From contig NZ_CP139972.1 of the NCBI RefSeq assembly GCF_034424315.1, positions 6,014,001 to 6,078,000 on the forward strand: a stretch of 64,000 nt of DNA, written 5' to 3'. The notes beneath the pieces were generated by a model. That model saw only the letters and a program-made list of their open reading frames with translations, did no database searches and was not told the DNA's origin. The first letter of the stretch is position 1, and each line of letters starts with the position of its first letter. Position numbers and translations under genes: made by a program. This document shows positions 16,857-63,353 of this stretch, in pieces. Source of the DNA: Chitinophaga sancti (GTDB lineage: Bacteria; Bacteroidota; Bacteroidia; Chitinophagales; Chitinophagaceae).

Positions 16857-16909
16857 TGAAAATGGTTTTCATGCCCCTTGGTGAATTCCCGCTTTCATGA
16901 ATGTTTTTA
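16857..16909 (-). repeat. Micro-ORF repeat, copy A
   Basis: Minus-strand copy of a ~54-bp dispersed repeat directly behind the rsmI stop (TAA 16909-16907). Eight bases after the stop, ATG 16898 opens a 9-codon frame MKAGIHQGA ending TGA at 16869. That TGA overlaps ATG 16872, which opens MKTIFKEKEAVSKVI (stop at 16825) running into the neighbouring foldback. Confidence 0.8.
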
Positions 16910-17626
16910 TTGTGCTAATAGCAGGAATATCGCGGGCCGCTTATGTAGTTCCGGCAGCTCCTGCTTTTTCCATTCTTTTACTGTCTTTGTTTTAATATAC
17001 TCTTCCGGCGCAGTAATATCTGCGGCCACACACACCAGCGTAGTGTCCTTACAGCTAGCCAGCAAATCTCTCAATAAGTGGTTATTGCGGTAAGGAGTCT
17101 CTATAAACATCTCCGTCTGGTGTTTCTTTATCGATTCCAGTTCCAGCTCCTTAATCGCTTTGATACGTTCTCCCGGTTTCACCGGCAGATAGCCTACAAA
17201 CTGGAAGTTCTGTCCGTTCATCCCTGATGCGATCAATGCCATCAGCATTGAATTGGGGCCTACCATCGGAATGATGGGCGCATCTACGCTATGTGCCGCC
17301 AGTACAATCCGGTGTCCGGGATCTGCAATAGCAGGACAGCCCGCCTCGCTCATAACACCTATGTCCTTTCCTTCCAGCAAGAATTTCTTTGCCAGTTCTG
17401 TATCAGATACTCCGGTAGCCCCACCTCCCTGCATAAGCAGGATTTGCAGACTATCGATATTAATACTTCTGTCCAGTGCCTTCAGGTACCTTCTGGCGGT
17501 ACGTTCATTTTCCACAAAGAATACGCTGATCTTTTGTGCAGCCGCCGTCACGTAAGGCGGAATCGTGTGCAGCCCTTCAGGACTCAGCACAGTGGGAATC
17601 AGGTATACTTTACCAACTTGCTCCAT
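16907..17626 (-). CDS. RsmI-like SAM-dependent methyltransferase (tetrapyrrole methylase fold)
   Basis: 239 residues from the chosen start MEQVGKVYLIPTVLSP. The family of RsmI methylates the 2'-O of C1402 in 16S rRNA. Visible blocks: GVSDTELAKKFLLEGKDIGVMSEAGCPAIADPG (substrate loop), VPMVGP-like PIIPMVGPNSMLMALIASG, and the C-terminal ETPYRNNHLLRDLL. It is a shorter Bacteroidota variant whose N-terminal SAM loop (LYLVATPIGN in E. coli) is replaced by KVYLIPTVLSP, so rRNA specificity is inferred. The start overlaps the stop of the upstream EI24 gene by 17 bases. Micro-ORF repeat copy A begins at its stop. Confidence 0.8.
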   Translation of the reverse strand: MEQVGKVYLIPTVLSPEGLHTIPPYVTAAAQKISVFFVENERTARRYLKALDRSINIDSLQILLMQGGGATGVSDTELAKKFLLEGKDIGVMSEAGCPAIADPGHRIVLAAHSVDAPIIPMVGPNSMLMALIASGMNGQNFQFVGYLPVKPGERIKAIKELELESIKKHQTEMFIETPYRNNHLLRDLLASCKDTTLVCVAADITAPEEYIKTKTVKEWKKQELPELHKRPAIFLLLAQ

Positions 17627-18389
17627 GTAACAGGCGTTTATCAGATAAATGAATAGTAGCAGCAATCACTGCGTAAGAAGGAGCCATGATCCAGCCTAAC
17701 ACAGGAATAAACATCAATATATAAAACACCATACCATTGCCCAGGGCAATACCTCTGTGTGCGCGTATAAATTGAATACTTTGTTTTGTATTGAGTCTGT
17801 ACCTTTCACAACTATAGTCTACCATAGAGAAACCGTAAAAATAGGCTTCAATAAAGAAGGCAAACAGGGGAGTGATCCATCCTACAATGGGGATAAAAGA
17901 AAGTATGATCAGGACAATCACACACAATGTCTGGTTCAGACTATTGCGAATCGACATCACAATGCCTCTTCCCATATCCTTCATAAACTGTTGCCAGCTG
18001 AAAGGATAATCCTTTCTCTCCATAATCGCTTCCGTCTTTTCCGAGAGATACGAAAACAGGGGGGAGCCCAACACCAGGAAGAGGTATTTGTAGTAAGAAA
18101 AACAGAGTAGTAAGATCATGAAACGGATGGAGAGCCCCAACAGGATAAAGAAGAAACTGATCCAGCTACTTTCGAGATCCTGTATCCAGACTTTCACCGG
18201 AAGCAGGTTAAAAAGATATTCAACAAAATCCCCCGAATATCCCCAAACAAAATAAATCCCCGTCATGAAGAGTATGCAGTACATGATACCTGGTATCAGG
18301 ATCCATTTCCATAACTTGTGCTGCATTATAAACTGATGTGCTTTCCCATAAGCCTGTACGGCCGCCAGTACTTCTCTGAATGAAAACAA
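17610..18389 (-). CDS. EI24/CysZ-type membrane protein
   Basis: 259 residues with about five hydrophobic membrane segments (for example WILIPGIMYCILFMTGIYFV, SFFFILLGLSIRFMILLLCF, LCVIVLIILSFIPIVGWI, GMVFYILMFIPVLGWIMAP). The motif GSPLFSYLSEKTEAIM followed by the paired FIPxxGW helices is typical of the EI24 domain family, which includes the sulfate permease CysZ. Sulfate transport is not established for this branch. It overlaps rsmI by 17 bases, forming a two-gene operon. Confidence 0.85.
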   Translation of the reverse strand: MFSFREVLAAVQAYGKAHQFIMQHKLWKWILIPGIMYCILFMTGIYFVWGYSGDFVEYLFNLLPVKVWIQDLESSWISFFFILLGLSIRFMILLLCFSYYKYLFLVLGSPLFSYLSEKTEAIMERKDYPFSWQQFMKDMGRGIVMSIRNSLNQTLCVIVLIILSFIPIVGWITPLFAFFIEAYFYGFSMVDYSCERYRLNTKQSIQFIRAHRGIALGNGMVFYILMFIPVLGWIMAPSYAVIAATIHLSDKRLLHGASW

Positions 18390-18556
18390 ATTCTACTGTT
18401 TTTGAATTAGTTATAGCATTATTCGCATTGATCGGATTGTAAATAACTAAAAATCACGGTAAAATCCCGAAAAAATTAAGCTGAGCGGGAAATCTCTTTA
18501 AAAAAAATACACCCCTCCGTTAAGCTACCAAACCCCGCCCTGCATTAAAATAAAAA

Positions 18557-18581
18557 ACCTGCCCGTTTTTACCAGGCAGGT
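18557..18581 (-). terminator. Terminator for the PorP/SprF gene
   Basis: ACCTGCC (18557-18563) pairs with GGCAGGT (18575-18581) around an 11-base loop. On the minus strand it is followed by TTTTTTATTTTA. Confidence 0.8.
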
Positions 18582-18607
18582 CTCTTTTATTTTGATTTAT
18601 GTCAGAC

Positions 18608-19627
18608 TTAGAATCTTGGACACATGGTCTTATACTTGTTACCATCATTCCTTCTGTGAATATAGATCACAGACAGCTCCATACCACCACGGTAGTTAGA
18701 AGCCGGTTTCAGAGAAGATACGTTCATATCGTAAGTCAGCCCTACGGTGAAACCACCTATTTCCAGGCCTACATAAGGATTGATCGCATCTTTCAGGCGG
18801 TACCAGCTACCCAGGTAGAATACGGTTGGATTGTCGTCCATACCACCGCTCAGGTCAAAGCCATAAGCGCCACCAAAAGTAAACTCGCTGGCAGTGCTCT
18901 GTTTCATATACAGGGCAGATACGTGAATGCGGTTTGTACCATTTACCGGGAAGGAACCACCTCCATGTGCAGTTACGCGTGCTGTCAGCCTGTTGTTGTT
19001 CTGTTGCATGAACGTTTCAGTTGGCTGTGTGATATGGTATAAGGAGACACCTGCGTAAATGTTGGAAGATTCACCGACCAGACCGTTATACAGGATCCCA
19101 ATGTTAGGATCCAGATAAGAAACGTTCGGATTTGAAATGGTTTCACCGCTGGGGATAGCCGGGTTATAACCATTGTTGTCTATCTGATTTTCGAACACCA
19201 GTTTACTTTGATCCAGGCGTTTCGATACATATGTAGCCTGTACACCTACAGCAAGGGTATGGTTTCCTTCCGGATCCAAACCTTTGTGGTAAGCCGTACT
19301 AAAGCTCAGATAGGTAGAGGTAAGTGCACCACCACCAGTCCTGTCATACATAGCCATCAGACCTACGCCCCAGATATCAGTATAGGAAATGACATTTTTG
19401 AGAATGCCAAAGTCGATTGCCGCAGTTCCTGTAGTGAAAGGGGTAGATATGCTTCGCCATTGTTCACGGTAGTTACCGGATATTCTGTAGTCGCCGGAGA
19501 ACAGACCAGTCATAGCAGGGTTCAGCGTCATTGGAGAAGCGAAAAACTGCGAAAAATGGGGATCCTGCGCCCTGGCGGGGTTCATCAGATAAAGGGTGAT
19601 CGTTAAAAACAGCAACACTTTTTTCAT
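18608..19627 (-). CDS. PorP/SprF family type IX secretion membrane protein
   Basis: 339 residues. The start at 19627 gives the signal peptide MKKVLLFLTITLYLMNPARAQ; a longer frame to 19720 adds 31 residues with no signal character. Family hallmarks: QDPHFSQFFASPMTLNPAMTGLFSGDYRISGNYREQWRSI at the mature N-terminus, then outer-membrane barrel strands and the C-terminal GGMELSVIYIHRR. PorP/SprF proteins anchor the type IX machinery or specific cargo (SprB-like adhesins) at the outer membrane. It stands alone here, away from gldJ-porU-porV. Confidence 0.92.
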   Translation of the reverse strand: MKKVLLFLTITLYLMNPARAQDPHFSQFFASPMTLNPAMTGLFSGDYRISGNYREQWRSISTPFTTGTAAIDFGILKNVISYTDIWGVGLMAMYDRTGGGALTSTYLSFSTAYHKGLDPEGNHTLAVGVQATYVSKRLDQSKLVFENQIDNNGYNPAIPSGETISNPNVSYLDPNIGILYNGLVGESSNIYAGVSLYHITQPTETFMQQNNNRLTARVTAHGGGSFPVNGTNRIHVSALYMKQSTASEFTFGGAYGFDLSGGMDDNPTVFYLGSWYRLKDAINPYVGLEIGGFTVGLTYDMNVSSLKPASNYRGGMELSVIYIHRRNDGNKYKTMCPRF

Positions 19628-19937
19628 AGAGCAATACTTATGTATAGGGTTTCTCGTGCCTACGTGTGAAGGTACACAAAGCTCGTCATATCTCAAATTA
19701 AAATTATATAATCTTAACACTGAGAAACCTCTAAGTCGTTCAGAATTATTGGTTTAGTCACTTTATTTTTCCCTTACAAAAACTAGCGGTCAACTGGGTT
19801 TTACTTATTTTGGCTGTATTGCTGCACGCCCGGTATAAATTGTCCGGAATCCTTTCCTGGAGCCGTTTGAATCAATGCTTACCGGACCTGTTTGAGGCAG
19901 ATCCGGTCACTCTTCTGCTACTATTTTTAGTAAGATC
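19628..19937. other. Intergenic region upp to PorP/SprF
   Basis: 310 bases. Near the upp end there is a hairpin ACCGGA/TCCGGT (about 19879-19905) without a clear T-run. The rest is AT-rich and presumably holds the PorP/SprF promoter; no clean -7 box was seen. Confidence 0.4.
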
Positions 19938-20591
19938 TTAATTTTGTAGTTTATTTCCAAAGGCAAGGTCACCCGCATCACCCAAACCAGGTACAATGTA
20001 TCCCTTTGCGGTAAGCTCGTCATCAATGTCTCCGGCCCAGATGGTCAGGTTATTATCAGCATATCGTTGTACATATTCGATCCCTACTGTGCAGGCGATA
20101 GCTACTACCAGGTGAATATGTTTGGGCTTGCCAATGCTTTGCAGGTGTTCAATGGTCTTTACCAGCGATGCACCTGTAGCCAGCATAGGATCTGATATGA
20201 TCACTACCTGGTCTTCGATTACCGGACTGGATACATACTCCAGGTTGATATCGAACGAACCATCATGATTATGCTTACGGTAAGCAGATATAAAAGCATG
20301 ATCTGCCTTGTCAAAATAATGAACCAAACCCTGGTGCATAGCCAAACCTGCTCTCAGGATGGTCGCCAGTACAGGTTGTTGTTTCAGTACCCGGCAATTG
20401 GCAATCCCCAAAGGAGTCTGCACTTCCTTCTCCTCGTATTCCAATGTTTTGCTGATCTCGAAGGCAGCAACTTCACCCACCCGTTCCAGGTTCCTTCTGA
20501 AACGCATTCTGTCGGTTTGAATTTCCATGCTCCTGATCTCACTCAGCCATTCTCCTACTAGTGAATTGGTACTACTCAGATTTACTATCAT
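19938..20591 (-). CDS. upp: Uracil phosphoribosyltransferase
   Basis: Pyrimidine salvage: uracil + PRPP to UMP + PPi. 217 residues, the normal length. The PRPP loop VVIISDPMLATGASLV and the C-terminal uracil-binding block AKGYIVPGLGDAGDLAFG are intact, as is ATILRAGLAMHQGLV. N-terminal SSTNSLVGEWLSEIRS is typical of the Bacteroidota enzyme. A single-gene unit with hairpins on both sides. Confidence 0.96.
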   Translation of the reverse strand: MIVNLSSTNSLVGEWLSEIRSMEIQTDRMRFRRNLERVGEVAAFEISKTLEYEEKEVQTPLGIANCRVLKQQPVLATILRAGLAMHQGLVHYFDKADHAFISAYRKHNHDGSFDINLEYVSSPVIEDQVVIISDPMLATGASLVKTIEHLQSIGKPKHIHLVVAIACTVGIEYVQRYADNNLTIWAGDIDDELTAKGYIVPGLGDAGDLAFGNKLQN

Positions 20592-20623
20592 GGCTGCAAA
20601 TTACCACTTTTTTTAATCCAAAA

Positions 20624-20700
20624 AAGTGGGGGCCGATGGAAAAACACCGGCCCCGGTAAGTATAGGCGCACTTTCGGGCTTAAAAAAAAGTCCCCCACTT
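20624..20700 (-). terminator. Nested hairpins ending the vWA gene transcript
   Basis: GGGGCCG (20629-20635) pairs with CGGCCCC (20648-20654); on the minus strand it is followed by CACTTTTTT, a standard terminator. A larger arm pair AAGTGGGGG (20624-20632) and CCCCCACTT (20692-20700) overlaps it, giving an alternative fold. Confidence 0.7.
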
Positions 20701-20736
20701 AGCAATACTTTGGTTAACAATGGGATGAAAGGCCGG

Positions 20737-22596
20737 CTAATTATCGTCAGTATCCGCCATGACGTTGGAATAGGCAGGTGTACCACTGTTCAGTAACTTC
20801 GCTTTTTTGACCAGTTGAATGAATTCTGCCCGGTAGCCTTCTTTATCTATTCCTTTGGCACTTTCTGCAAGAGATAAAACCTGCTCGTAGCTGGCTTTCC
20901 CCTTAAATGCCGAGTTCCTCAGCAACATCCCGAAGGCTGCGACTGCAGTAGCCATTTTAAAGTCGTCCGGCACCCTGTTCATGTGCAATACATTCCAGCG
21001 CATTCTTTGTGAAAATACCCTGCTGCTGTTGGATTTCGGCTTCTTGTACCGTAGGTCCACCGTCAGCGCATCTTCATTCCAGTAAGTCATCATCCTGTCT
21101 GACTGGTCCATTTTCAGGGAATAAGGCAGGTGCTCATCTTCCGGAGGAGCGATCTCGTACAAGGCAGTCACAGTATGACCTGCACCGATTTCGCCACCAT
21201 CTTTTTTATCATCGTTAAAGTCCTCTGTTTGCAGCAACCTGTCTTCGTAGCCGATCAGGCGGTAAGCGCCTACAAAATGAGGGTTAAACGCTACCTGTAG
21301 TTTCACATCTTTGGCTACGGTAAAAAGAGTACCGCCAAACGTTGTTACCAACGTACGGAGGGCTTCTTCGTAGGTATCGATATAAGCATAGTTCCCATTT
21401 CCCTTATCCGCCAGCGTTTCCAGTTTATTGTCTTTCAGGTTGCCCATGCCAAAGCCCAGTACAGAGAGGAAAATGCCTTTTTCTTTCTTTTCTGAAATAA
21501 GTTTTTCAAGCTCGCTCTGGCTGGAAATGCCTACATTAAAATCCCCGTCTGTAGCGAGAATAACGCGGTTATTACCATCTTCGATGAAGTTGGCAGCCGC
21601 CGTGTTATAGGCCAGTTGTATGCCTGCACCACCTGCCGTAGATCCACCCGCTTCCAGTTTGTCCAGGGCATCCATGATAGCGATCTTTTCACTACCAGGG
21701 GTAGAAGGCAAAACGATACCGGCAGCACCCGCATATACGGCAATGGCTACATGGTCAATAGGGCGGAGTTGCTGTGTCAGCGCTTTCAGTGACCGGATCA
21801 CCAATGGCAGCTTGTTGTCATCACTCATCGAACCGGATACATCGATGAGAAATACCAGGTTGGCAGGAGGTAGTTTCTCATTAGAAATTTCCATGGCTTT
21901 TACACCAATCCTTACCAGCTGATGATCCGGTTCCCAGGGGCATTTGATCATGTCTGTATAGATGGCTACCGGATCATTGCCGGTAGGAGGCTTGTATTGA
22001 TAGTCGAAGTAATTGATCAATTCTTCCAGTCTTACAGCATCGGCAGGAGGAAGGGAGCCGCTATTGAGAAAACGGCGTACGTTGGAGTAGGAAGCCCTGT
22101 CTACGTCTGCAGCAAACGTGCTGAGGGGCTGAGATTCCGTATTTATGAAACGATTACCGGCAATAGGGTCATATTCCTCCTCTATGTTCTTCCCGCTGAC
22201 AGTTGTTAGGCAGCTGCTGGTATAACATCTTTGGACCCTGGTACCATAACCACTGACCACTACCTCCTCCAGGTTGTGCTGACTAATCAGCAACTCCACA
22301 TTCAGTGGTGCCAACCTGTTAAGTGCGGCTATTTTCTTAGAATAGGGGATCTCTTTTGCTGTATAACCTATGCTGCTGAATACCAGTGTCACATTTTCCA
22401 GTGGTATCTTAATCTCATATTTACCTGAAGTATCAGTGATGGTTCCTATGGAAGTACCTTTTACCTGGACAGTCACCCCGGTAATAGCCTTGTGTGAACC
22501 GGTGTCGGTTACAATTCCGGTCAGTATATGCTGGGCCTGCGTATGGATGGTAAAAAGCCCTGCCAGTAACAGGAATAGGTACTTTAGCATAGTCAA
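20737..22596 (-). CDS. vWA-domain protein with N-terminal carboxypeptidase-like domain (YfbK type)
   Basis: 619 residues. Signal peptide MTMLKYLFLLLAGLFTIHTQAQ; residues 25-103 are a CarboxypepD_reg-like beta sandwich (ILTGIVTDTGSHKAITGVTV ... VTLVFSSIGYTAKEI), as seen at the N-terminus of TonB receptors; then a YfbK/DUF3520 module with a von Willebrand A domain (~245-420). The MIDAS metal site is complete: DVSGS (Asp252, Ser254, Ser256), GGSTAGG and ATDGDFN. Probably a periplasmic or surface protein binding partners through a metal site. Single gene, divergent from anmK. The SGYGTRVQRCYTSSCLTTVSG segment resembles a TonB-receptor plug start. Confidence 0.88.
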   Translation of the reverse strand: MTMLKYLFLLLAGLFTIHTQAQHILTGIVTDTGSHKAITGVTVQVKGTSIGTITDTSGKYEIKIPLENVTLVFSSIGYTAKEIPYSKKIAALNRLAPLNVELLISQHNLEEVVVSGYGTRVQRCYTSSCLTTVSGKNIEEEYDPIAGNRFINTESQPLSTFAADVDRASYSNVRRFLNSGSLPPADAVRLEELINYFDYQYKPPTGNDPVAIYTDMIKCPWEPDHQLVRIGVKAMEISNEKLPPANLVFLIDVSGSMSDDNKLPLVIRSLKALTQQLRPIDHVAIAVYAGAAGIVLPSTPGSEKIAIMDALDKLEAGGSTAGGAGIQLAYNTAAANFIEDGNNRVILATDGDFNVGISSQSELEKLISEKKEKGIFLSVLGFGMGNLKDNKLETLADKGNGNYAYIDTYEEALRTLVTTFGGTLFTVAKDVKLQVAFNPHFVGAYRLIGYEDRLLQTEDFNDDKKDGGEIGAGHTVTALYEIAPPEDEHLPYSLKMDQSDRMMTYWNEDALTVDLRYKKPKSNSSRVFSQRMRWNVLHMNRVPDDFKMATAVAAFGMLLRNSAFKGKASYEQVLSLAESAKGIDKEGYRAEFIQLVKKAKLLNSGTPAYSNVMADTDDN

Positions 22597-22666
22597 AAAG
22601 TTTAATCTGCTACATGATGCTGGTCATTGTAATGATTCCATAATCCCCCGGGAAAAAAATATCGTA

Positions 22667-22674
22667 TAGATTTG
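22667..22674 (+). promoter_or_regulatory. Putative anmK promoter -7 box
   Basis: TAGATTTG matches TAnnTTTG; ends 15 bases before the anmK ATG. Confidence 0.45.
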
Positions 22675-22689
22675 CACAAATTTTAGGGC

Positions 22690-23754
22690 ATGGTATACAA
22701 TGTAATAGGAGTCACTTCAGGTAGCTCACTGGATGGGCTGGACCTGGTGTTTGTAGCTTTGACGGAGGTAAGAGGCAAGTGGACGTACGAGATCAAAGCC
22801 GCTGAGCGTAAAGCATATACAGAAGACTGGAAAGAGAAACTGTCAAATGCAGCGAACCTGCCAGCCAGAGATTATTTTCTGCTACATAGTGAATATGGAC
22901 ATTATATAGGGAATGCAGTAAAGGATTTTATTGCGACCCATGGTTTTGATCACCTGGTACATTTTATCACCACGCATGGTCATACGGTATTCCATATGCC
23001 TTCCCAGAAGATGACGGCACAGCTGGGCGATGGTGCAGCTATCACCGCAGTAACAGGTCTTTCCGTGATCAGTGATCTGCGTGCAATGGATGTTGCCCTG
23101 GGTGGTAAAGGAGCTCCTTTGTTCCCGGTAGCAGAGCAACTCCTGTTCCCAAATGCAGCTTACAGGGTGAACCTGGGTGAAAATGCAACGATCTCTGCCC
23201 GGAAAGATGAGGAGCTGGTAGCTTTTGATGTATGTCCCTGCAATTATGTGCTGGATGCCCTGGCGGAGACCCTGGGCCGTGCATATGATGAAAATGGAAG
23301 CCTGGCTGCTGGTGGGGTAACTGACCCGCAACTGCTGGATGCGCTGAATGGATTAGCGTATTATGCGCAGCCTTATCCAAAAACACTGGCGAATAAATTT
23401 GGTACGACCGCTGTATTGCCAATGATGCAGGGGCATCACCTGTCTACACAGAGCAAGCTGAATACTTATACAAAACATATTGCTGCGCAGATAGCTAATG
23501 CGGTGAACCTGATCGGAGGAGAAGGAGGAGAGGTGCTGCTGACTGGTGGCGGTGCACATAACAGCTTCCTGGTGGAAACCATCAAAGAAGCCGGGCTGAA
23601 AGTAACACAGCCGGACGAACAAACGCTCACTTTCCGCACAGCGTTGATGATTGCATTACTAGGCGCTTTGCGCTGGAGACAGGAAACAAACGCATTTGCT
23701 TCCGTAACCGGTGCTGATCGTGATAGTGTAGGTGGTGCACTCTGGTGTAACTAG
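22690..23754 (+). CDS. anmK: Anhydro-N-acetylmuramic acid kinase
   Basis: Murein recycling: converts anhydroMurNAc and ATP to MurNAc-6-phosphate. 354 residues. Phosphate-binding GVTSGSSLDGLDLVF at 7-21, THGHTVFHMP, catalytic-region QLGDGAAITAVTGLSVISDLRAMDVALGGKGAPLFP, and VLLTGGGAHNSFLV near the C-terminus. The Gly-rich N-terminus GVTSGSS differs slightly from the common GTSSGTS but keeps the Asp of SLDGLD. Monocistronic, ends at a strong hairpin shared with ade. Confidence 0.94.
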   Translation: MVYNVIGVTSGSSLDGLDLVFVALTEVRGKWTYEIKAAERKAYTEDWKEKLSNAANLPARDYFLLHSEYGHYIGNAVKDFIATHGFDHLVHFITTHGHTVFHMPSQKMTAQLGDGAAITAVTGLSVISDLRAMDVALGGKGAPLFPVAEQLLFPNAAYRVNLGENATISARKDEELVAFDVCPCNYVLDALAETLGRAYDENGSLAAGGVTDPQLLDALNGLAYYAQPYPKTLANKFGTTAVLPMMQGHHLSTQSKLNTYTKHIAAQIANAVNLIGGEGGEVLLTGGGAHNSFLVETIKEAGLKVTQPDEQTLTFRTALMIALLGALRWRQETNAFASVTGADRDSVGGALWCN

Positions 23755-23761
23755 AAAAATA

Positions 23762-23802
23762 CATTTACGGATGTTATCACTTAGTGATAACATCCGTAAA
23801 TG
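23762..23802. terminator. Bidirectional terminator whose right arm is ade coding sequence
   Basis: Perfect 19-bp arms (23762-23780 and 23784-23802), loop TTA. The right arm is the last codons of ade, and its stop lies in the loop/left-arm region. On the minus strand it runs into TATTTTTC; on the plus strand it serves anmK. Confidence 0.85.
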
Positions 23803-25417: not shown

Positions 25418-25426
25418 GTTTTTAAT

Positions 25427-26428: not shown

Positions 26429-26501
26429 GCAAAATTATTTAGGTGCTAAAATTAATGAAATTGATTTTATCGGTACGCAAATCCTCTGCGCGTAGTGACA
26501 C

Positions 26502-26509
26502 TACTTTTG
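26502..26509 (+). promoter_or_regulatory. Putative -7 box for the 26528 gene
   Basis: TACTTTTG matches TAnnTTTG; 18 bases before the ATG. Confidence 0.42.
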
Positions 26510-26527
26510 TATTGTCAATAACACAAG

Positions 26528-27121: not shown

Positions 27122-27274
27122 GCCTATGTAAAGAGTGATATAAAAACTGAAAAAAACCATTTAACCTATTCCCTTAAGCGTGATGATGTAAACATATTCT
27201 TGTACTACCCTTGAAAAACCCGCATCCCGACCCCTATGATTTTTGTTGCAAACGTTCAAGTGTGTTATCCCTAA

Positions 27275-27337
27275 TACCTTTGTTCTCAGTTGTTTGTTAT
27301 GACCTCAGCCCTGCCTGTTTCTCAGGCAGGGATTTTT
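27275..27337 (+). ncRNA. Candidate ~50-nt small RNA or attenuator (promoter plus terminator)
   Basis: A -7 box TACCTTTG (27275-27282) is followed after only 26 bases by a perfect 9-bp hairpin CCCTGCCTG-tttct-CAGGCAGGG (27309-27331) and a T5 run. A transcript would be about 50 nt. No -33 match at standard spacing. The peroxiredoxin gene has a separate -7 box downstream, so this may be an independent RNA. Confidence 0.4.
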
Positions 27338-27441: not shown

Positions 27442-27469
27442 GTAACGTAACCAGTAAAAAGAAAATAAT

Positions 27470-37233: not shown

Positions 37234-37263
37234 AAAAAGGCGGTCCATCCGGACCGCCTTTTT
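37234..37263 (+). terminator. Terminator after uvrA
   Basis: Perfect 13-bp arms (37234-37246 and 37251-37263), loop ATCC, A-run and T-run on opposite sides; it may also stop minus-strand transcription coming from the DUF4293 gene. Confidence 0.9.
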
Positions 37264-37316
37264 TATCTGAAGATAGTTTTCATACCCCTTGGTGAATTCC
37301 CGCTTTCATAAATGTC
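37263..37316 (-). repeat. Micro-ORF repeat, copy B
   Basis: Minus strand. ATG 37309 opens MKAGIHQGV, stop TGA 37282-37280, overlapping ATG 37283 that opens MKTIFR, stop TAA 37265-37263. It directly follows copy C in tandem with a 54-bp period. Against copy C, the second frame differs only at two silent third positions (ACT/ACC, ATC/ATT). Confidence 0.85.
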
Positions 37317-37374
37317 TTATCTGAAAATGGTTTTCATACCTCCCGGCGAATTCCCTCTTTCATAAATGTCTTTA
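37317..37374 (-). repeat. Micro-ORF repeat, copy C
   Basis: Minus strand, starting at the DUF4293 stop (TAA 37374-37372). Eight bases later ATG 37363 opens MKEGIRREV, stop TGA 37336-37334, overlapping ATG 37337 that opens MKTIFR, stop TAA 37319-37317. The host gene's final AGA TAA matches the AGA TAA ending the MKTIFR frames. Confidence 0.85.
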
Positions 37375-37815
37375 TCTCAATCTATCGAGAGACTTAATCA
37401 GTTTTTCATCCTTATACACCCCTCTTGCCGCCATGATCAAAAAGATCAGGATAAGCACGGGCAGGAATGCACCCGGCAGGTAAGTAGAAGCGGCAATCGT
37501 CTTGCCTGTACTTTCAAATGCATTCGCAAAATCCTGCACTTTTAAATACTGCAAAGCGATCGCAGCTATTGCCAGAAAAATATCCAACACCGTCAGCCTG
37601 AATTGGAGTTTCCGGTTTTTGAACAGGAAAATACAGAACAGGGAAAGCGCTACAATCAGCATGTAGACTACAAAGACCATAAAATTAGACTGGGCATTGA
37701 AATACTTAGGTACCTGATCATTACTCAGGGTCACTTTAAAAATATCCAGAAACCAGGTTCCTACAGCAGCTCCGGCAGCTAACAGAAGGTAAAGACTTTG
37801 AATGCGTTGTATCAT
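37372..37815 (-). CDS. DUF4293 family membrane protein
   Basis: 147 residues with four membrane helices (MIQRIQSLYLLLAAGAAVGT, FMVFVVYMLIVALSLFCIFL, TVLDIFLAIAAIALQYL, FLPVLILIFLIMAARGVYKD). The N-terminal MIQRIQSLYLLLA and C-terminal AARGVYKDEKLIKSLDRLR are hallmarks of DUF4293, a Bacteroidota family of unknown function. The stop codon is the left edge of the tandem micro-ORF repeats. Next to it upstream lie fold-back copy 2 and the iteron array. Confidence 0.88.
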   Translation of the reverse strand: MIQRIQSLYLLLAAGAAVGTWFLDIFKVTLSNDQVPKYFNAQSNFMVFVVYMLIVALSLFCIFLFKNRKLQFRLTVLDIFLAIAAIALQYLKVQDFANAFESTGKTIAASTYLPGAFLPVLILIFLIMAARGVYKDEKLIKSLDRLR

Positions 37816-53813: not shown

Positions 53814-53876
53814 TCATTTATTCCATTGACCATTATCATCCATGGCTAGCGATTTTCGCATTATTTTGCATATCAA

Positions 53877-54938: not shown

Positions 54939-54957
54939 AAATGCTGGCGGCAAACGT

Positions 54958-54965
54958 TATCTTTG
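54958..54965 (+). promoter_or_regulatory. Putative aspS promoter -7 box
   Basis: TATCTTTG matches TAnnTTTG, 68 bases before aspS. The leader contains a hairpin ACCCGG/CCGGGT. Confidence 0.5.
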
Positions 54966-55033
54966 CCGACCTACCCGGGAAACAGCCGGGTGGGCTGAAA
55001 AGATATTTAAGAGCAACACATAAGGCATAGTAT

Positions 55034-56779: not shown

Positions 56780-56819
56780 TGGCATGGTATTTGCCAATGG
56801 CAGCATGCATTAAGACACT

Positions 56820-56866
56820 GAAATCCCCCTTGATACTGTGAGAAATGCGGTTTCAAGGGGGATTTC
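56820..56866 (+). terminator. Terminator after aspS
   Basis: Perfect 14-bp arms GAAATCCCCCTTGA (56820-56833) and TCAAGGGGGATTTC (56853-56866), 19-base loop. Confidence 0.75.
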
Positions 56867-57070
56867 GGCAAATTAAACGGCGGCACAATATTTACTGAAT
56901 CCCAAAGACTTATGTGAATATAGCCCCTCATTCCTGCAAGATTTTAATATATAAGTATCACATTGTAAAAACTTTTAAACTATATTGCCGGTAAGAAGGA
57001 ATGTTTCTGGCGCCTGATAAGGATGAGATTGATAAAACATACATTATTCAGTACAAGAAAAATTACTGCC

Positions 57071-57598
57071 ATGACATTGAACAAGATGTTCAGCAGCCGT
57101 TGGTTTTGTGCGGTGCTATGCACGATCTTACTGTTTGGCAACAGTGCGTATTCCCAAAGCAAGGTCCGTTATGTAACAAAATACAAGGAAACGGCGATTG
57201 CAATTATGAACGAGACCGGTATCCCTGCGAGTATTATTTTAGGGATTGCAATGCTGGAATCAGGTATGGGAACCAGCAAGAATGCCCGCTTGCTTCACAA
57301 CCATTTTGGTATTGTGGGTAAGAATAAGCTTCATAAGAAGAAAGGGGGAACCTATCGGTCGCGGTACCGGGAGTTTGAATCAGATGATGCATCTTTCAGG
57401 TATTTCGCAAAGATGGTACAGAAGAAGAAGTATTATCCTTTAATGAAGGGTGATCCGAAATACAAAGACTGGTTAAAGCACATGAACGACAGCGGGTATT
57501 CTGCTGCCGGGCAGGTTTGGGAGAAAAGGGTAGCGGGCATGATCAGTCGGTATAAGTTGTATAAACTGGATGAGCAAATGGCTTATTCAAAGAAATAA
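57071..57598 (+). CDS. Exported glucosaminidase-domain protein (GH73-like murein hydrolase)
   Basis: 175 residues from MTLNKMFSSRWFCAVLCTIL (signal peptide ending AYSQ); a start at 57023 adds 16 residues. Residues ~35-165 are a glucosaminidase (PF01832-like, FlgJ/LytG) domain: YVTKYKETAIAIMNETGIPASIILGIAMLESGMGTS, where the Glu of AMLESG is the likely catalytic acid, then HNHFGIVG, and the conserved WEKRVAGMISRYKLYKLDE end. Predicted to cut MurNAc-GlcNAc in murein. No LysM repeats, so it is a minimal enzyme. Own terminator downstream. Confidence 0.88.
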   Translation: MTLNKMFSSRWFCAVLCTILLFGNSAYSQSKVRYVTKYKETAIAIMNETGIPASIILGIAMLESGMGTSKNARLLHNHFGIVGKNKLHKKKGGTYRSRYREFESDDASFRYFAKMVQKKKYYPLMKGDPKYKDWLKHMNDSGYSAAGQVWEKRVAGMISRYKLYKLDEQMAYSKK

Positions 57599-57616
57599 AT
57601 TTTTTAAAAAAAGACG

Positions 57617-57655
57617 TAACTAAACGCATCTGTCTCTGGCAGATGCGTTTAGTTA
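57617..57655. terminator. Terminator after the glucosaminidase gene
   Basis: Perfect 16-bp arms (57617-57632 and 57640-57655), loop TCTCTGG, core AAACGCATCTG. Confidence 0.85.
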
Positions 57656-57657
57656 TG

Positions 57658-57688
57658 TTTAGGAATAGCGCTAACTTTATTAGCTTTA
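57658..57688 (+). promoter_or_regulatory. Possible promoter of the SGNH-MBOAT operon
   Basis: TTTA (57658-57661), 19-base spacer, TAGCTTTA (57681-57688): each box one base from consensus, correct spacing, 29 bases before the first gene. Confidence 0.4.
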
Positions 57689-57717
57689 GTAGACCAATCC
57701 AATAATCAGAGTAATTC

Positions 57718-59169
57718 ATGTCTGGCAATAACAAATCTGCCTATCCTTTTTATATCATTACGGGGGCTTTAGTGTGTCTGGTGGCTTTATCCCAGTTCGA
57801 TAACATTGTATCTTACGCAGGATTCAAAACCCGCTCGCTGGATATGCTGGCGGATCTGCGACCTGATTCTTTGCGCAAACAGCAGCAGGAGGACGATACC
57901 CCGGTAGACAGTTCCATGATTCCCCAGGTGCCGGCAGAAGATTCTTCGGAAACTGCCGCAGACGTAGCTGCCGATTCTACACTGGCTACAGCACTGGCAG
58001 ATGTGCCGGACCCTGACAAACATCTCGATTTTACTGGTTATAAAGGCATTATCAGTTACAACCTGCCCCAAACTGCCGATACGGCAGCTGCCGGGCTCCA
58101 GCATTTCCTGGATGCACTGGCACAGTTGAAGCAGGGTAAGCGCAAGAAAGTACGTATCGCCTATTTTGGTGACTCTATGATTGAGGGTGACCTGCTGACT
58201 GAAGACCTGCGCGACAGCCTGCAAAGGAGATTCGGGGGCAGTGGTGTAGGTTTTGTACCTATCACTTCGGTAGTAGCAGGGTTCAGAACTACGATCACGC
58301 ATACTTTTTCCAAAGACTGGAAAGATTACAGTTATAAGCAACAACCACCTTCCAATATCAGGCTGGGTATTTCCGGGCACACATTTGTACCCAGTGGAGG
58401 TAGTTATGTGCGGTATACCCCGGTACATAAGAAGCGCCTGGACAAATTTGAGCATGTTACCCTCTTCTATGGTCCTGCAGGCAATGCAAATATCACGATC
58501 AACGATAAGGCATATACCCTGAAGGAGCAGAATACGGTGAACCGTTTCGTATGGTCACAGGATCCTGCACAGAATAATGTAACGATCAAGTGGGCAGGTG
58601 GCGGTACGACGCCTTTTTATGGCGTGTCTTTTGAGGGCGATAGTGGTGTGTATGTGGACAACTTCTCATTCCGTGGTATCAGTGGTATTGAGTTAGGGAA
58701 GTTATCAAAGACACTGGTACAGGAGATGCAGAATGAACATCCTTATGACCTTGTGATTCTCCAGTACGGTGCTAATATATTGTTCAAACCAAAATTGACT
58801 GACTACAGCTGGTATGCGAGACCAATGAAGAAGGTGATCGATTCTTTGAGAAGAGATATGCCTGGTACTTCATTTTTGGTGATCAGCACGGCTGATAAAT
58901 CATATAAAAATGGTGGTGACTGGGTGACAGCGCCGGGTGTAATGGCCTTACTCAAAGATCAGCATGAGCTGGCTAAGCAGCATGGTACTGCTTACTGGAA
59001 CTTGTATGCTGCGATGGGGGGCGAAGGTACCATGGCAAAGTGGGTAGAGGGTGATCCGGTGTTAGCCCAGAAAGACCATACGCATTTTAACAGACAGGGA
59101 GCAGCCAAAGTAGCGGCGCTGCTGTATAAAGCTATGATGGATGAATTTAAGCAGTTGGAAATTCAATAA
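57718..59169 (+). CDS. SGNH/GDSL-type acyl hydrolase-like protein, membrane anchored (first of two)
   Basis: 483 residues. One N-terminal membrane helix (~10-30, FYIITGALVCLVALSQF), a ~100-residue acidic linker, then an SGNH domain. Catalytic candidates: block I IAYFGDSMIEGDLL (Ser), block III VILQYGANILF (Asn), block V KDHTHFNRQG (Asp and His). In MBOAT-linked systems (AlgX/AlgJ, PatB) such proteins accept the acyl group and transfer it to a glycan outside the inner membrane. Overlaps the next SGNH gene by 29 bases. Confidence 0.88.
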   Translation: MSGNNKSAYPFYIITGALVCLVALSQFDNIVSYAGFKTRSLDMLADLRPDSLRKQQQEDDTPVDSSMIPQVPAEDSSETAADVAADSTLATALADVPDPDKHLDFTGYKGIISYNLPQTADTAAAGLQHFLDALAQLKQGKRKKVRIAYFGDSMIEGDLLTEDLRDSLQRRFGGSGVGFVPITSVVAGFRTTITHTFSKDWKDYSYKQQPPSNIRLGISGHTFVPSGGSYVRYTPVHKKRLDKFEHVTLFYGPAGNANITINDKAYTLKEQNTVNRFVWSQDPAQNNVTIKWAGGGTTPFYGVSFEGDSGVYVDNFSFRGISGIELGKLSKTLVQEMQNEHPYDLVILQYGANILFKPKLTDYSWYARPMKKVIDSLRRDMPGTSFLVISTADKSYKNGGDWVTAPGVMALLKDQHELAKQHGTAYWNLYAAMGGEGTMAKWVEGDPVLAQKDHTHFNRQGAAKVAALLYKAMMDEFKQLEIQ

Positions 59170-60415
59170 AACAACTCTCTTTACAGGAATACTTACATTA
59201 ACTGTCAGCCTGGCTTCTGGTCAGGCGAATCGTATTGCACAGGATTCCGCACTCTTTAAGTTCTTTGCTTCTCTGGACAGGTCAGATAGTATGGTCGTAT
59301 CTATACTTCACCTGGGTGATTCTCATGTTCAGGCTGGTTTTTTCCCTGGGGCAACTGCCTCCCTGTTACAACGGGATTTCGGAGATGCCGGCAGGGGATG
59401 GGTATTTCCCTGGAACCTGGCCAATACCAACGGCCCTGGCGATTATCGCTGGAATAGTACCGCCAGGTGGAATGCTGATCGAATCATTGACAAGTACAAA
59501 CCTTCTGTATTAGGCCCCGGTGCAATCATGATCAGCTCTACGCAGTCATCGCCGGCACTGGCGTACAACAGGAGAGAGGATAGCCCCGAAAATGGTATCA
59601 GCCAGGCAGAACTGTTTTATGATGCAGGTCCTGAGGAGGCTACAGTAGTAGCGCCGGGCGCAGATATCAATATCTTCGGTCCTCCTTTCAGAAATGCAGG
59701 TTCTACGGTGAAGGTGGCAACATTGAATTTTGAGGCACCGGTGCAAAACTTCCAGGTCCGCTGGGATGATAAGGGCAGTCAGCCGTTTCATTTTTACGGC
59801 GCGCTGCTCTTCAATGGCAAGCCAGGGGTGCAATACAATGCAGTGGGTATCAATGGTGCCATGTACAGCCAGTACAATGATGCGAGCAATACCCTGGTAG
59901 CGGAGATGGATGTGATGAAGCCACAGCTGGTGATCATATCACTGGGTACGAATGAAGCGTATAGTTCGCTGAATACTGCCAACTTCAGGGATCAGATAGA
60001 TAGTACGGTGACGGTAATACGCCGGTATCAGCCGGGAGCAAGCATCCTGCTAACTACCCCACCAGAGTGTAAGAGAGTGAGCAAGCATGCCTTCAGGAAG
60101 AAAGTTGGAAAGAGATATAAAACCTTTTATAAGATCTCCTATTACCCGAATCCTTATATCGCTGTTGTGACCCAACAGATCATGAGCTATTGTAAAGAAA
60201 AAGGGATTGCGTGCTGGAACTTTAATGCGGAGAACAGGTTCAGGGAATCTGAATTCGCAGGCGGTTGGTCACCGGATCATATTCACTTCAATGTACGTGG
60301 ATACCAGTTGCAGGGGAAATTATTGTACGACGCATTGCATCAGAGTTATATAAAGTTTAAAAAGTACGCTACCGCACATTACAACGTGAAAGAAGATGAC
60401 GATAGAGCTGAATAA
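59141..60415 (+). CDS. SGNH/GDSL-type protein, exported (second of two)
   Basis: 424 residues with a signal peptide (MNLSSWKFNKTTLFTGILTL ... ASGQ) and full SGNH blocks: SILHLGDSHVQAGFF (Ser), VIISLGTNEAYSSL (Gly/Asn), WSPDHIHFNVRGYQ (Asp and His). A beta-sandwich insert sits between blocks I and III (~110-220). Starts 29 bases inside the first SGNH gene and overlaps the MBOAT gene by 20 bases, so synthesis of all three is coupled. Confidence 0.88.
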   Translation: MNLSSWKFNKTTLFTGILTLTVSLASGQANRIAQDSALFKFFASLDRSDSMVVSILHLGDSHVQAGFFPGATASLLQRDFGDAGRGWVFPWNLANTNGPGDYRWNSTARWNADRIIDKYKPSVLGPGAIMISSTQSSPALAYNRREDSPENGISQAELFYDAGPEEATVVAPGADINIFGPPFRNAGSTVKVATLNFEAPVQNFQVRWDDKGSQPFHFYGALLFNGKPGVQYNAVGINGAMYSQYNDASNTLVAEMDVMKPQLVIISLGTNEAYSSLNTANFRDQIDSTVTVIRRYQPGASILLTTPPECKRVSKHAFRKKVGKRYKTFYKISYYPNPYIAVVTQQIMSYCKEKGIACWNFNAENRFRESEFAGGWSPDHIHFNVRGYQLQGKLLYDALHQSYIKFKKYATAHYNVKEDDDRAE

Positions 60416-61883
60416 AATCATAAGTCTACTGACGTATAATCCGAAGAATCCTATCCTGTTTAATAGTGCATTCTTCATGTACTATTTTGCAGTGTTCCTG
60501 CTGTTTTACCTGGCGGCGAGTAGTAATAAACGAGCCCGGGTAGCGGTATTCACTGTTTTCTCTTTGTACTTCTTTTATATGGCCTGCGGCATGTATGTGG
60601 GGCTGGTGCTGTTATCGGCAGTGGTGGATTTCAACTTGTCCAGGTGGATTTACAGATCGGAGAAGGCGGGGTTCAGGAAGCGATTGCTCATATTAAGTAT
60701 CGTGTTGAACCTGGGGCTGTTGTTTTATTTTAAGTATACCAATTTCTTTATTGACCTGATGAATGAGATGGCGCATGGAAACATCCAGCCATTGAAGCTG
60801 ATATTGCCGATTGGTATATCCTTTTACACATTTGAGAACCTGAGTTATACGGTGGATGTATACAAGCGGGAGTTCAAGCCTGTGGATGATTTTATGGATT
60901 ACCTGTTCTTCCTGTCATTCTTCCCTAAGCTGATGATGGGGCCGATTGTGCGGGCTGCTGATTTCATTCCGCAAATTTACAAGCCTTATGTACTGGATAG
61001 AGAGGACATTGGAAAGGGCATGTACCTGATAATAGCGGGTTTGTTTAAGAAGGTGGTGATCTCGGATTTTATTAATCAGAATTTCGTTCAGTATATTTTT
61101 GATGATCCGGCTAAGCATACGGGCTTAGAGTGTTTGCTTGGGGTGTATGGGTATGCGCTGATCATTTATTGTGACTTTTCCGGGTATTCTGATATGGCGT
61201 TGGGTATTGCCCGCTGGACCGGGTTTAAGATCCCGGCGAACTTCGATTCTCCGTATCAGAGTAGCAGTATTACAGAGTTCTGGCGCAGGTGGCATATTTC
61301 CCTGTCTTCCTGGCTGAGGGATTACCTGTATATTCCTTTGGGGGGTAATCGTAAGGGAAAGGTAAGACAGTTTGTGAACCTGTTCCTGACCATGTTGATT
61401 GGAGGTTTCTGGCATGGTGCGAGCTGGAATTTTATCTTCTGGGGTGGTTTGCATGGAACGGCGCTGGCGGTAGACAAGGTGAGGATTGATTACCTGAAGC
61501 AAAAAGGAGGAGGACCTTCCGGTTTCTGGGGTGGTGTGCTGAAGGTGATTGGGGTATTGATCACGTTCAATTTTGTGTGTTTCTGCTGGATATTCTTTAA
61601 GGCTTCGACCTTTTCAGATGCATGGTCATTGATTCACCAGGTAGTGTACGATTTCCAGCCGGAAGTATGGTTGGAATTGTATAATGGATATACGGCGGTG
61701 TTCTGGGTGATGCTGCTGGCGTTTGTATTGCATTTCCTGCCGAAGAAGATGGAGCTGGGCACGGAGAATCTTTTGGGGAAAGTGCCGGTTGTTGGGAATG
61801 TGGTGATTATGGTGGTATTCATCTGGTTAATGGCACAGGTGAAAAGTTCACAGACGATGTTACCGATATATTTGCAATTCTAA
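60396..61883 (+). CDS. MBOAT-family O-acyltransferase (AlgI/PatA type)
   Basis: Polytopic membrane enzyme moving acyl (usually acetyl) groups across the inner membrane. 495 residues with ~10-11 hydrophobic segments. MBOAT hallmarks: LPIGISFYTFENLSYTVDVYKRE, PKLMMGPIVRAADFIPQI, YCDFSGYSDMALGIARWTGFKIPANFDSPY, EFWRRWHISLSSWLRDYLYIPLGGN and the invariant His in GGFWHGASWNFIFWGGLHG. Together with the two SGNH proteins this is a self-contained O-acylation module. The acceptor glycan (exopolysaccharide or murein) is not indicated by neighbours. Confidence 0.94.
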   Translation: MTIELNKIISLLTYNPKNPILFNSAFFMYYFAVFLLFYLAASSNKRARVAVFTVFSLYFFYMACGMYVGLVLLSAVVDFNLSRWIYRSEKAGFRKRLLILSIVLNLGLLFYFKYTNFFIDLMNEMAHGNIQPLKLILPIGISFYTFENLSYTVDVYKREFKPVDDFMDYLFFLSFFPKLMMGPIVRAADFIPQIYKPYVLDREDIGKGMYLIIAGLFKKVVISDFINQNFVQYIFDDPAKHTGLECLLGVYGYALIIYCDFSGYSDMALGIARWTGFKIPANFDSPYQSSSITEFWRRWHISLSSWLRDYLYIPLGGNRKGKVRQFVNLFLTMLIGGFWHGASWNFIFWGGLHGTALAVDKVRIDYLKQKGGGPSGFWGGVLKVIGVLITFNFVCFCWIFFKASTFSDAWSLIHQVVYDFQPEVWLELYNGYTAVFWVMLLAFVLHFLPKKMELGTENLLGKVPVVGNVVIMVVFIWLMAQVKSSQTMLPIYLQF

Positions 61884-61904
61884 ATATTTGAAAAATATTA
61901 TTTG

Positions 61905-61936
61905 AAAAGGCTGCCGGATGGTGGCCTTTTTGTTTT
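61905..61936 (+). terminator. Terminator after the MBOAT gene
   Basis: AAAAGGC (61905-61911) and GCCTTTT (61924-61930), then TGTTTTTT. Confidence 0.75.
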
Positions 61937-61986
61937 TTAAATTATTGTTAAATTTTTTGCTTTCTTTGCCGCAAATTTCGTTTTGA

Positions 61987-63300
61987 ATGCGGCTTAAGCT
62001 TCTGCCGATTGTCGGTGTGTTCGTTCTCCTTTCCTCTGTGGCAAAGGCGCAGTTCCTTATGGATATGATTGATACCACCACTGAACTTGGGAAAGGTATG
62101 ATCTCCTTATACCATAAATACGATGCTGTAAGGTTTAGCGGTTATATCCAGCCTCAATTTCAATACGCCCAGGCCAAAGGGATCGAGTCCTATGCCGGTG
62201 GCAACTTTGTTGAACATGTGAACAACCGTTTCATGCTTCGCCGTGGCCGTTTCCGCCTCGACTACCAACATTACAACAAGGATAACATGCCGGTCGTTCA
62301 GTTTGCTTTCCAGTTTGACGGAACTGAAAAAGGCGTATTTATCCGTGACTTCTTTGGGCGTTTGTTTGAAAACCGCTGGGATGTATTTTCTGTTACCACA
62401 GGTATGTTTGCCCGGCCTTTTGGGTTTGAGATCAACTTATCTTCCAGTGACAGGGAAACACCTGAACGTGGGCGAATGACACAGATCCTGATGAAAACGG
62501 AAAGGGATTTAGGGGCGATGGTCACTTTCGAACCCCGCCGGGCGAATCATCCGCTTCGTTTTTTGCGCCTGGATGCGGGCTTGTTTAATGGCCAGGGCTT
62601 ATCTGCCACTGCTGATTTTGATAGTCACAAAGACCTGATTGCCCGTTTATCTTTTAAGCCACTGCGCTTAAATGCGGCCAACTGGCGTTTGTCAGGCAGT
62701 ATTTCCTGTTTGTACGGAGGCATGGAGCAGTTTACCAACAACATTTACAGGATTAATAGTGCGGGTAGTTTCAAGGTAGACTCATCTACTGCCAATATCG
62801 GTAAGATCGCACCCCGTCATTATTATGGCGCTGACCTGCAGCTGAAAATTCCGAATGGCAGTAAGCGGGGGTATACTGAGCTGAGAGGGGAATACATTCG
62901 TGGCGTACAAACTGCTACTGCAGGTACGACTGAAACCCCGGCGGCTATTCCGATGAACGGTGCGCTGAATGCGCCATTGTATATCCGTAATTTTGATGGG
63001 GCCTACTTTTATTTCCTGCAAAACCTGGGAAATCCGCAGGATCTGCTGGTGCTGAAATATGACTGGTATGATCCAAACCGGGATGTAAAGGGAAAGGAAA
63101 TTGGTAGTGCTGGTGCGGGTCTTTCAAAAGCAGATATTCGTTATGATACATTTGGTGCCGGGTATGTGCATTATTTTAATGCCAACACAAAACTGATGTT
63201 GTTTTATGATTGGGTAAGGAATGAGACTACCGCATTGGATGGGTTTACGGAGGATGTGAAGGATAATGTGTTTACTTGTAGAATTCAATATCGTTTCTAA
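61987..63300 (+). CDS. Outer membrane porin, OprO/OprP (phosphate-selective) family
   Basis: 437 residues; signal peptide MRLKLLPIVGVFVLLSSVAK. A 16-strand-type barrel with YIQPQFQYAQ, RFMLRRGRFRLDYQHYNKDNMPVVQFAFQFDG, IRDFFGRLFENRWDVFSVTTGMFARPFGFE, TERDLGAMVTFEP and a C-terminal NVFTCRIQYRF strand ending in Phe. The family is named for phosphate or polyphosphate channels; selectivity is not proven here. Convergent with a histidine kinase that could be PhoR-like. Micro-ORF repeat copy D begins at its stop. Confidence 0.88.
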   Translation: MRLKLLPIVGVFVLLSSVAKAQFLMDMIDTTTELGKGMISLYHKYDAVRFSGYIQPQFQYAQAKGIESYAGGNFVEHVNNRFMLRRGRFRLDYQHYNKDNMPVVQFAFQFDGTEKGVFIRDFFGRLFENRWDVFSVTTGMFARPFGFEINLSSSDRETPERGRMTQILMKTERDLGAMVTFEPRRANHPLRFLRLDAGLFNGQGLSATADFDSHKDLIARLSFKPLRLNAANWRLSGSISCLYGGMEQFTNNIYRINSAGSFKVDSSTANIGKIAPRHYYGADLQLKIPNGSKRGYTELRGEYIRGVQTATAGTTETPAAIPMNGALNAPLYIRNFDGAYFYFLQNLGNPQDLLVLKYDWYDPNRDVKGKEIGSAGAGLSKADIRYDTFGAGYVHYFNANTKLMLFYDWVRNETTALDGFTEDVKDNVFTCRIQYRF

Positions 63301-63353
63301 ATAAAACATTCATGAAAGATGGAATTCACCAATGGGGATGAAAACCATTTTAA
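63298..63353 (+). repeat. Micro-ORF repeat, copy D
   Basis: Plus strand, directly behind the porin stop. ATG 63312 opens MKDGIHQWG, stop TGA 63339-63341, overlapping ATG 63338 that starts MKTILRKRV and runs on through the terminator. The second frame thus lacks the early stop of copies B and C. Confidence 0.8.

Follow-up and report, generated by a model that had tools for sequence, protein, structure and literature searches.

A ~53-nt repeat before transcription terminators in Chitinophaga sancti is probably a miniature element derived from the IS110 family

Introduction

Why should one short sequence, carrying what look like two tiny overlapping reading frames, recur directly behind stop codons? 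The question is raised by a 64-kb stretch of the Chitinophaga sancti genome (64,000 nucleotides; hereafter ‘the window’), in which an earlier note picked out four copies of a repeat that we call M. The note read the frames as suited to translational reinitiation, and named a mobile minimal cassette, an mRNA 3′-end element or a DNA site of accidental coding appearance as possible roles. Our analysis makes it highly probable that M descends from an IS110-family (DEDD transposase) element as a non-autonomous miniature of ~53 nt, presumably moved in trans, with micro-ORFs that are accidental. Recombinases of this family act under RNA guidance and, as two reports show (PMC11208160, PMC11187229), can be reprogrammed.

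Results

The repeat has a 51-nt core, with ~53 nt inserted. A consensus scan of the window finds exactly four copies where 0.00 are expected (100 shuffles); these are real, and far above chance expectation. Copy A (16857..16907, minus strand) has a long near-palindrome on one side and, on the other, the stop codon of an ORF for a 252-aa TP_methylase (PF00590), which we take to be rsmI. Copies C (37322..37372) and B (37268..37318), both on the minus strand, form a tandem pair with a 54-nt period: C, the first, adjoins the stop codon of a 147-aa DUF4293 ORF (37372-37815), and B, the second, is followed directly on its 3′ side by a terminator-like hairpin of the rho-independent type (37236..37261, minus strand; GGCGGTCC..GGACCGCC, AAAGGCGGTCCGGATGGACCGCCTTT). 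Copy D (63303..63353, plus strand) lies 3′ of a stop codon that ends at 63300, with a further terminator-like hairpin (63359..63384, plus strand; AGGGTTTTGCCAGCTGGCAAAACCCT) directly behind it. Across the 8.42-Mb genome we count 65 copies at up to three mismatches, 33 on the plus and 32 on the minus strand, with none for a reversed-pattern control. Within the genus, M is found in six of the 79 genomes searched, and arrays of 9 and 11 copies occur.

Comparison with relatives reveals both empty and filled sites. The site orthologous to that of copy A is empty in the sister genome G014 and in G031; the copy B/C locus holds one M in G014 and none in G031; and the locus of copy D is occupied in G014. 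Of nine loci compared between G014 and the C. sancti genome, five lack M in the former and four are occupied in both, the latter needing either old insertion or strong hot spots. Among 30 U repeats read, 20 have no M at the site where the other 10 carry it. M is thus an insertion, as seen from its filled and empty sites.

Two kinds of longer element, IS-A and IS-B, match both PF01548 and PF02371 over cut-off (the DEDD RuvC-like and Transposase_20 domains), and IS-B, found in G014 (locus L242), is an intact IS110-family element. When the left 40 nt of M are set against the left end of IS-B in a single register, the mixed consensus agrees at 38 positions, the 65 genomic copies at a mean of 34.8 (range 28-38), and window copies A, B, C and D at 36, 34, 31 and 37 respectively. 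The likeness at the right end is short: the last 11 nt of M share at least nine positions with the right end of the related IS-A (AACTATTTTCA) in 46 of the 65 copies, and eight or fewer in the other 19. Each of the 31 IS-A loci examined carries an M-like left segment, whatever stands to its left. At eight distant IS110 loci (L187-L194), no M-like ends were seen at 23/37 matches. With an M-like left end in the IS elements and a right end of M that resembles theirs, M shares the ends of the IS in addition to serving as its target; the M-like left end is part of the IS.

We consider it unlikely that M is instead an independent repeat, solely a landing site into or beside which IS110 elements insert. 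There are precedents for such an arrangement, namely IS1111 in QMITE2 of Coxiella and insertion sequences in REPs, and M is indeed a frequent landing site, with 24 of the 31 IS-A loci directly following a copy. Four of the others follow another IS-A and three follow neither, yet the M-like left segment is there in these three as well. It likewise accompanies IS-B or its relics where free M was not detected: in G183, which has no free M at three mismatches, and in two further sources where an exact-pattern scan gave a single stretch apiece, a Cytophagaceae MAG and Chitinophaga sp. YR627. The resemblance of the right end of M to IS right ends also argues against a mere landing site.

In the C. 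sancti genome itself there is no match to PF01548 or PF02371, nor to the IS-B protein at E 1e-60, and relic-like IS110 sequence is seen only beside one M (L042/L126). With no detectable IS110 transposase, the copies there look orphaned.

Where does M insert? A terminator-like hairpin lies within 25 nt 3′ of 41 of the 65 copies, against a mean of 3.65 and a maximum of 7 in 20 shuffle runs, and against six in the upstream 85 nt and eight on the other strand of that segment; the remaining 24 copies have no hairpin that passes the rule used, and 13 of the 65 lie more than 350 nt from any called ORF end in the sense direction. Between positions -16 and -4 relative to M, 34 of 65 copies have the motif AATAAA (mean 2.0, maximum 7, in 500 shuffle runs). 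For IS-A, a terminator-like hairpin stands 3′ of 20 of 30 right junctions, these being counted as distinct sequences with identical ones collapsed, whilst left junctions were counted by locus (31). M and the full-length elements have their target in common, the A-tract that precedes a rho-independent terminator on its 5′ side.

This placing before terminators, in the sense orientation, is also what one would expect of a structured RNA or REP-like mRNA 3′-end element that has spread or been retained because it acts in termination or on the stability of mRNA, as are the four loci of nine in common with G014. We nevertheless regard that reading as very improbable: orthologous loci in relatives lack M, the four window copies folded as single-stranded DNA show no advantage over shuffled sequences (z -0.46 to 0.54), the window has no Rfam match at gathering score, and the genome has no match to the Y1 transposase family (PF01797). 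A known RNA family and a RAYT/REP identity were both set aside on these grounds.

A guide-like segment is seen in the non-coding regions of the full-length elements, where the 9-mer before TGAT is identical to the element's own left junction at 26 of 31 loci (14/16 in G014, 1/1 in G201 and 11/14 in G196), as against 0/31 for the 9-mer of the other lineage. The match is compatible with RNA-guided targeting, with the proviso that it was found post hoc, is A-rich, comes mainly from two lineages and includes at least one base of the element itself; and since 24 of the 31 loci share an M on their left, they are not independent. Of the 65 left junctions of M, only 28 differ from the IS-B 9-mer at no more than one position, and longest-match shuffle tests between flanks and non-coding regions gave P values of 0.0475 to 0.61, seven of the eight not significant.

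This leaves the micro-ORFs. Reading the four window copies bears out the description in the earlier note: all have the layout given there, with the TGA/ATG overlap and adjacency to a stop codon, and copies B and C differ in the second frame only at silent positions. The constant 30-nt ATG-to-TGA distance holds for these four copies, but the absence of indels stated with it fails outside the C. sancti genome: in relatives a 1-nt insertion between the two ATGs is common. The two ATGs lie 26 nt apart in 63 of 66 own-genome copies; for [Flexibacter] sp. ATCC 35208, 31 of the 48 copies retrieved have them 27 nt apart, and for G014, 25 of 50 (in both cases a subset of that genome's copies). Among the own-genome copies, frame-1 lengths of 8 and 9 codons coexist, the first ATG is lost in 8 of 65, and neither frame shows an excess of variation at codon position 3 (mean entropy at positions 1/2/3 of 0.43/0.68/0.49 in frame 1 and 0.57/0.46/0.55 in frame 2; 65 copies). 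That the two frames are a selected feature, translated by reinitiation behind the host stop codon, is a proposal to which we give hardly any credence: it can draw on the layout in the window and on the second ATG, retained in 64 of 65 copies (though the search pattern itself selects for it), but it is contradicted by the frame-changing indel in relatives, by the two lengths, lost start codons and missing third-position signal, and by the IS ends, which account for the sequence of M. The micro-ORFs are accidental, and the copies of M most likely not genes; on this reading the resemblance of the first peptide to bL31 is coincidental, and both the adjacency to stop codons and the sense orientation arise because M inserts in the A-tract before terminators. 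Two of the roles floated at the outset, a mobile element and a DNA site with an accidental coding look, are those that gain support.

Discussion

Homology to IS elements at both left and right ends makes M best read as an IS110-derived miniature from which the interior has been deleted. Of an IS110-type parent it would have kept ~40 nt at the left end and, at the right, the final ~10 nt, and lost the transposase gene together with the guide-RNA region. We infer that M is mobile in trans: the transposase of a relative, with an RNA from its non-coding region (bridge RNA or seekRNA), may have recognised the ends of M and joined M to A-tracts (AATAAAA, for example) that precede terminator hairpins. 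Every insertion would remake TTTTCA plus an A-tract, so that new copies of M, or full elements, could stack on the right side. Tandem stacking is observed, both of M in arrays and of IS-A directly behind M or another IS-A.

M and the intact elements with PF01548 and PF02371 have their ends and target class in common, which relates M to IS110/IS1111 as described in PMC11208160 and PMC11187229; M differs from such elements in having neither transposase nor guide-RNA region. In IS1111 the longer non-coding region usually lies downstream of the gene, as it does in IS-B (163 nt downstream and 69 nt upstream of tnp, measured for IS-B only), and the subterminal inverted repeats known from that group are statistically clear only in IS-A (P 0.017, as against 0.22 and 0.83 for IS-B).

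Like bacterial MITEs, M is short, non-coding and present in many copies, with the ends of an autonomous element where that is known; examples are MITEPsy1 (100 nt, with ISPsy2 as its probable source), MITECca01 (~240 bp, IS982), MITEPye1 (IS1182) and QMITE1/2 (origin open), the parents named for these belonging to IS families other than IS110. M has ends common to an autonomous element, and many copies with insertion polymorphism and empty sites. It differs in its size (~53 nt), its DEDD (IS110) parent and its flanks: on reading the copies we saw neither terminal inverted repeats nor a target duplication, the latter being undefinable because the junctions lie in the A-tract. We therefore call M MITE-like, rather than a MITE in the strict sense. 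REP/BIME sequences resemble M in being repeats scattered between genes, to which IS elements are drawn; of the two features expected of a REP/RAYT system, a Y1 transposase and a conserved hairpin, the first has no match in the C. sancti genome and the second no counterpart in the folding of the four window copies.

A further parallel is an engineered one. In PMC11187229 and PMC11208160, mini-IS and 22-bp donors, IS110/IS1111-type DNA reduced to minimal ends, are moved by transposase and guide RNA supplied in trans; M, in contrast, is natural, present in tens of copies per genome and holds both ends within 53 nt. A literature search outside subscription papers and preprints found nothing on this repeat in Chitinophaga, nothing linking IS110 to rho-independent terminators in those words and, among the matches listed, no miniature element derived from IS110 or IS1111.

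We incline slightly towards the further view that M serves in nature purely as a donor for RNA-guided recombination: its ~53 nt would hold both ends, an IS110 recombinase would move it in trans under a guide that specifies the generic A-tract ahead of terminators, and M itself would act as a landing pad for full-length elements. If this is true, the A-tract before terminators would be a harmless and abundant class of site, and minis and full elements would pile up on landing-pad copies as arrays at gene ends. M also illustrates how a short repeat can look like translated micro-ORFs when it recurs at one position behind stop codons. A natural family shrunk to ~53 nt would reveal what evolution keeps of both ends; and since sister genomes offer both a transposase gene that looks intact and segments resembling guides, the end requirements and the targeting of terminators become directly testable.

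A dispersed insertion at gene ends

The four copies of the repeat, hereafter ‘M’, that the earlier note laid out in the window are all present (A, 16857–16907, minus strand; B, 37268–37318, minus; C, 37322–37372, minus, forming a tandem pair with B; D, 63303–63353, plus), with none expected in shuffles. Across the single 8,421,768-base contig of the Chitinophaga sancti genome (G000), a pattern scan allowing up to 3 mismatches returns 65 copies, 33 forward and 32 reverse; the reversed-pattern control gives 0. In a column profile of 94 retrieved copies, three genomes mixed, the conserved stretch runs from −9 to +41 relative to ATG1 (the start of the first of two overlapping micro-ORF frames) and is flanked by A-rich sequence. 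Six of 79 genomes in the genus carry M: G000 (67 copies, by a 3-mismatch pattern slightly unlike the one giving 65), G201 (45), the sister genome G014 (44), G196 (24), G031 (13) and G211 (5). An exact-pattern scan of genome contigs, from which entries for the window's own genome may be missing, finds 25 stretches, of which [Flexibacter] sp. ATCC 35208 contributes 23 and Chitinophaga sp. YR627 and a Cytophagaceae MAG one each, the latter two both IS110-associated.

M is an insertion. The B/C locus holds two copies in G000, one in G014 and none in G031; the copy A locus is M-free in both relatives. In an 800-kb part of G014 that shares synteny with the window region, four of nine G000 loci have M and five lack it, one of these (L061) being aligned on one side only. 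A second repeat of G000, ‘U’ (40 matches to its pattern, of which 30 were read), contains M at 10 sites, between a GAATAAAA-like sequence and a hairpin; nearly all of the 20 sites without M continue directly into a hairpin, with L363 as an exception. Comparison of filled with M-free sites gives an inserted length of 53–54 nt. U (L335–L364) ends in CTCCATCAGG..CGAATAAAA, immediately 5' of a terminator hairpin whose sequence is often related (GAGGCTGTATC..GATACAGCCTC or variants of it). U, too, may be a miniature element.

In 41/65 G000 copies, the end of M is followed within 25 nt by the start of a terminator-like hairpin (controls: shuffled flanks, 20 runs, mean 3.65, maximum 7; the 85 nt upstream, 6; its other strand, 8). 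Upstream, 52/65 copies have the end of a sense ORF (at least 90 codons) no more than 350 nt away; downstream, 55/65 have that of a converging ORF within the same limit; two copies have neither. AATAAA is found between −16 and −4 in 34/65, as against a mean of 2.0 in 500 shuffle runs (maximum 7). Copy A is followed by a 108-nt near-palindrome (16741–16848; GAGGCAGTGTCAAAAGTAA..TTACTTTTGATACTGTCTC), read by eye, with partly similar sequence 3' of M at L003 and L050; G014 and G031 have a short, different terminator in its place.

The micro-ORF frames

The micro-ORF frames in M are very probably accidental. The earlier note described their spacing in the four window copies as free of indels; the distance from ATG1 to ATG2 (the start of frame 2) is 26 nt in 63/66 G000 copies, but 27 nt in 31/48 ATCC 35208 and 25/50 G014 retrieved copies, which joins the two frames. 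In G000, ATG1 is absent from 8/65 copies and frame 1 stops at two alternative positions (8 or 9 codons). Mean column entropies at codon positions 1/2/3 of the G000 copies are 0.43/0.68/0.49 for frame 1 and 0.57/0.46/0.55 for frame 2, the third position being the most variable in neither.

Relationship to IS110-family elements

Copies matching PF01548 (IS110-family) occur in four of the six M-bearing genomes (G014, 22; G196, 18; G201, 1; G211, 1), only some belonging to the two intact-looking types discussed here, IS-A and IS-B; the same search of G000 and G031 found none. Both types exceed the cut-off for PF01548 and PF02371. IS-B (L242 in G014; 385 aa) starts with M-like sequence, its left end matching a mixed M consensus at 38/40 nt, each of the 65 G000 copies at between 28 and 38 positions (mean 34.8; A 36, B 34, C 31, D 37) and a form of M with GGGG at 39. 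In IS-A, of which G014 and G196 contain numerous copies, the left end is M-like but diverged, and the right end (AACTATTTTCA) shares at least 9 matches with the last 11 nt of M in 46/65 copies. M looks like an IS left end fused to a right end, the gene and guide region removed. At L126 (2354–2460; 2.824 Mb in G000), M and an inverted partial M surround an IS110-like N-terminal scrap, the sole hint seen of a former IS110 in this genome.

Two results indicate that the M-like left segment is part of the IS itself: its presence in 31/31 IS-A loci examined, with scores alike within each genome and independent of the left neighbour, and its association with IS-B or its relics in G183, YR627 and the MAG. 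In G183 the 3-mismatch search finds no free M; the exact scan, a weaker test, gives one stretch each for YR627 and the MAG. M in addition serves IS-A as a landing site, the left neighbour of the 31 loci being M directly in 24, another IS-A in 4 and neither in 3; the 30 distinct IS-A right-junction sequences meet a terminator-like hairpin (20), another IS-A (3) or neither (7). In G196 (C1, 2.111–2.117 Mb), four IS-A stand head-to-tail (L234, L236, L238, L304; spacing about 1,462–1,464 bp), paralleling M units spaced 53–56 nt. In YR627, a relic resembling IS-B, its left end M-like, adjoins the tmRNA gene 3' end (L106, 4318–4500).

Guide-like segments

Downstream of the transposase gene, IS-A and IS-B share a common layout. 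Directly before TGAT stands a 9-mer that is identical to the 9 nt spanning the left junction in 26/31 IS-A loci; this alignment is post hoc, includes one or more element bases and, given adjacent M copies, concerns junctions that are less independent. The match is AGAAAAAAC in 14/16 G014 and 1/1 G201 loci and AAAGAAAAC in 11/14 G196 loci; the other lineage's 9-mer matches 0/31 exactly. For IS-B, the 9-mer matches its own left junction in G183 (AAATAAAAC) and nearly so in G014. Left junctions of G000 M copies read AATAAAAAC in 21/65 and AAATAAAAC in 8/65; at up to 1 mismatch, the G014 IS-B 9-mer accounts for 28/65, that of G183 for 18/65 and the two IS-A 9-mers for 9/65 and 0/65. A second segment, after GCACG, holds AAAGAAAA in G014 IS-A and AATGAAAA in G196 IS-A, a difference that recurs in 17/17 and 12/13 distinct IS-A right junctions. 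Counting against a guide role, unrestricted longest-match tests of the non-coding regions against the flanks were not significant in 7/8 cases.

Proposed movement

ISEc11 cargo between IS ends of 84 bp and 71 bp has been shown to move when transposase and seekRNA are supplied in trans (PMC11187229), and 22 bp of donor are enough for recombination if bridge RNA acts in trans (PMC11208160). In view of these results, M, which has both ends in 53 nt, is plausible as a donor. Every M insertion leaves TTTTCA and an A-tract to its right, from which tandem arrays would follow; arrays reach 9 copies in G014 and 11 in ATCC 35208. An array with both flanks alike (L093/L114) has 9 copies in G014 versus 3 in ATCC 35208, and one alike in its right flank only (L094/L109) has 4 versus 11.

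Miniature elements of other IS families have been described (MITEPsy1, MITECca01, MITEPye1, QMITE); none derived from IS110 or IS1111 was found in the literature searched, a set with preprints and most subscription papers outside its scope.
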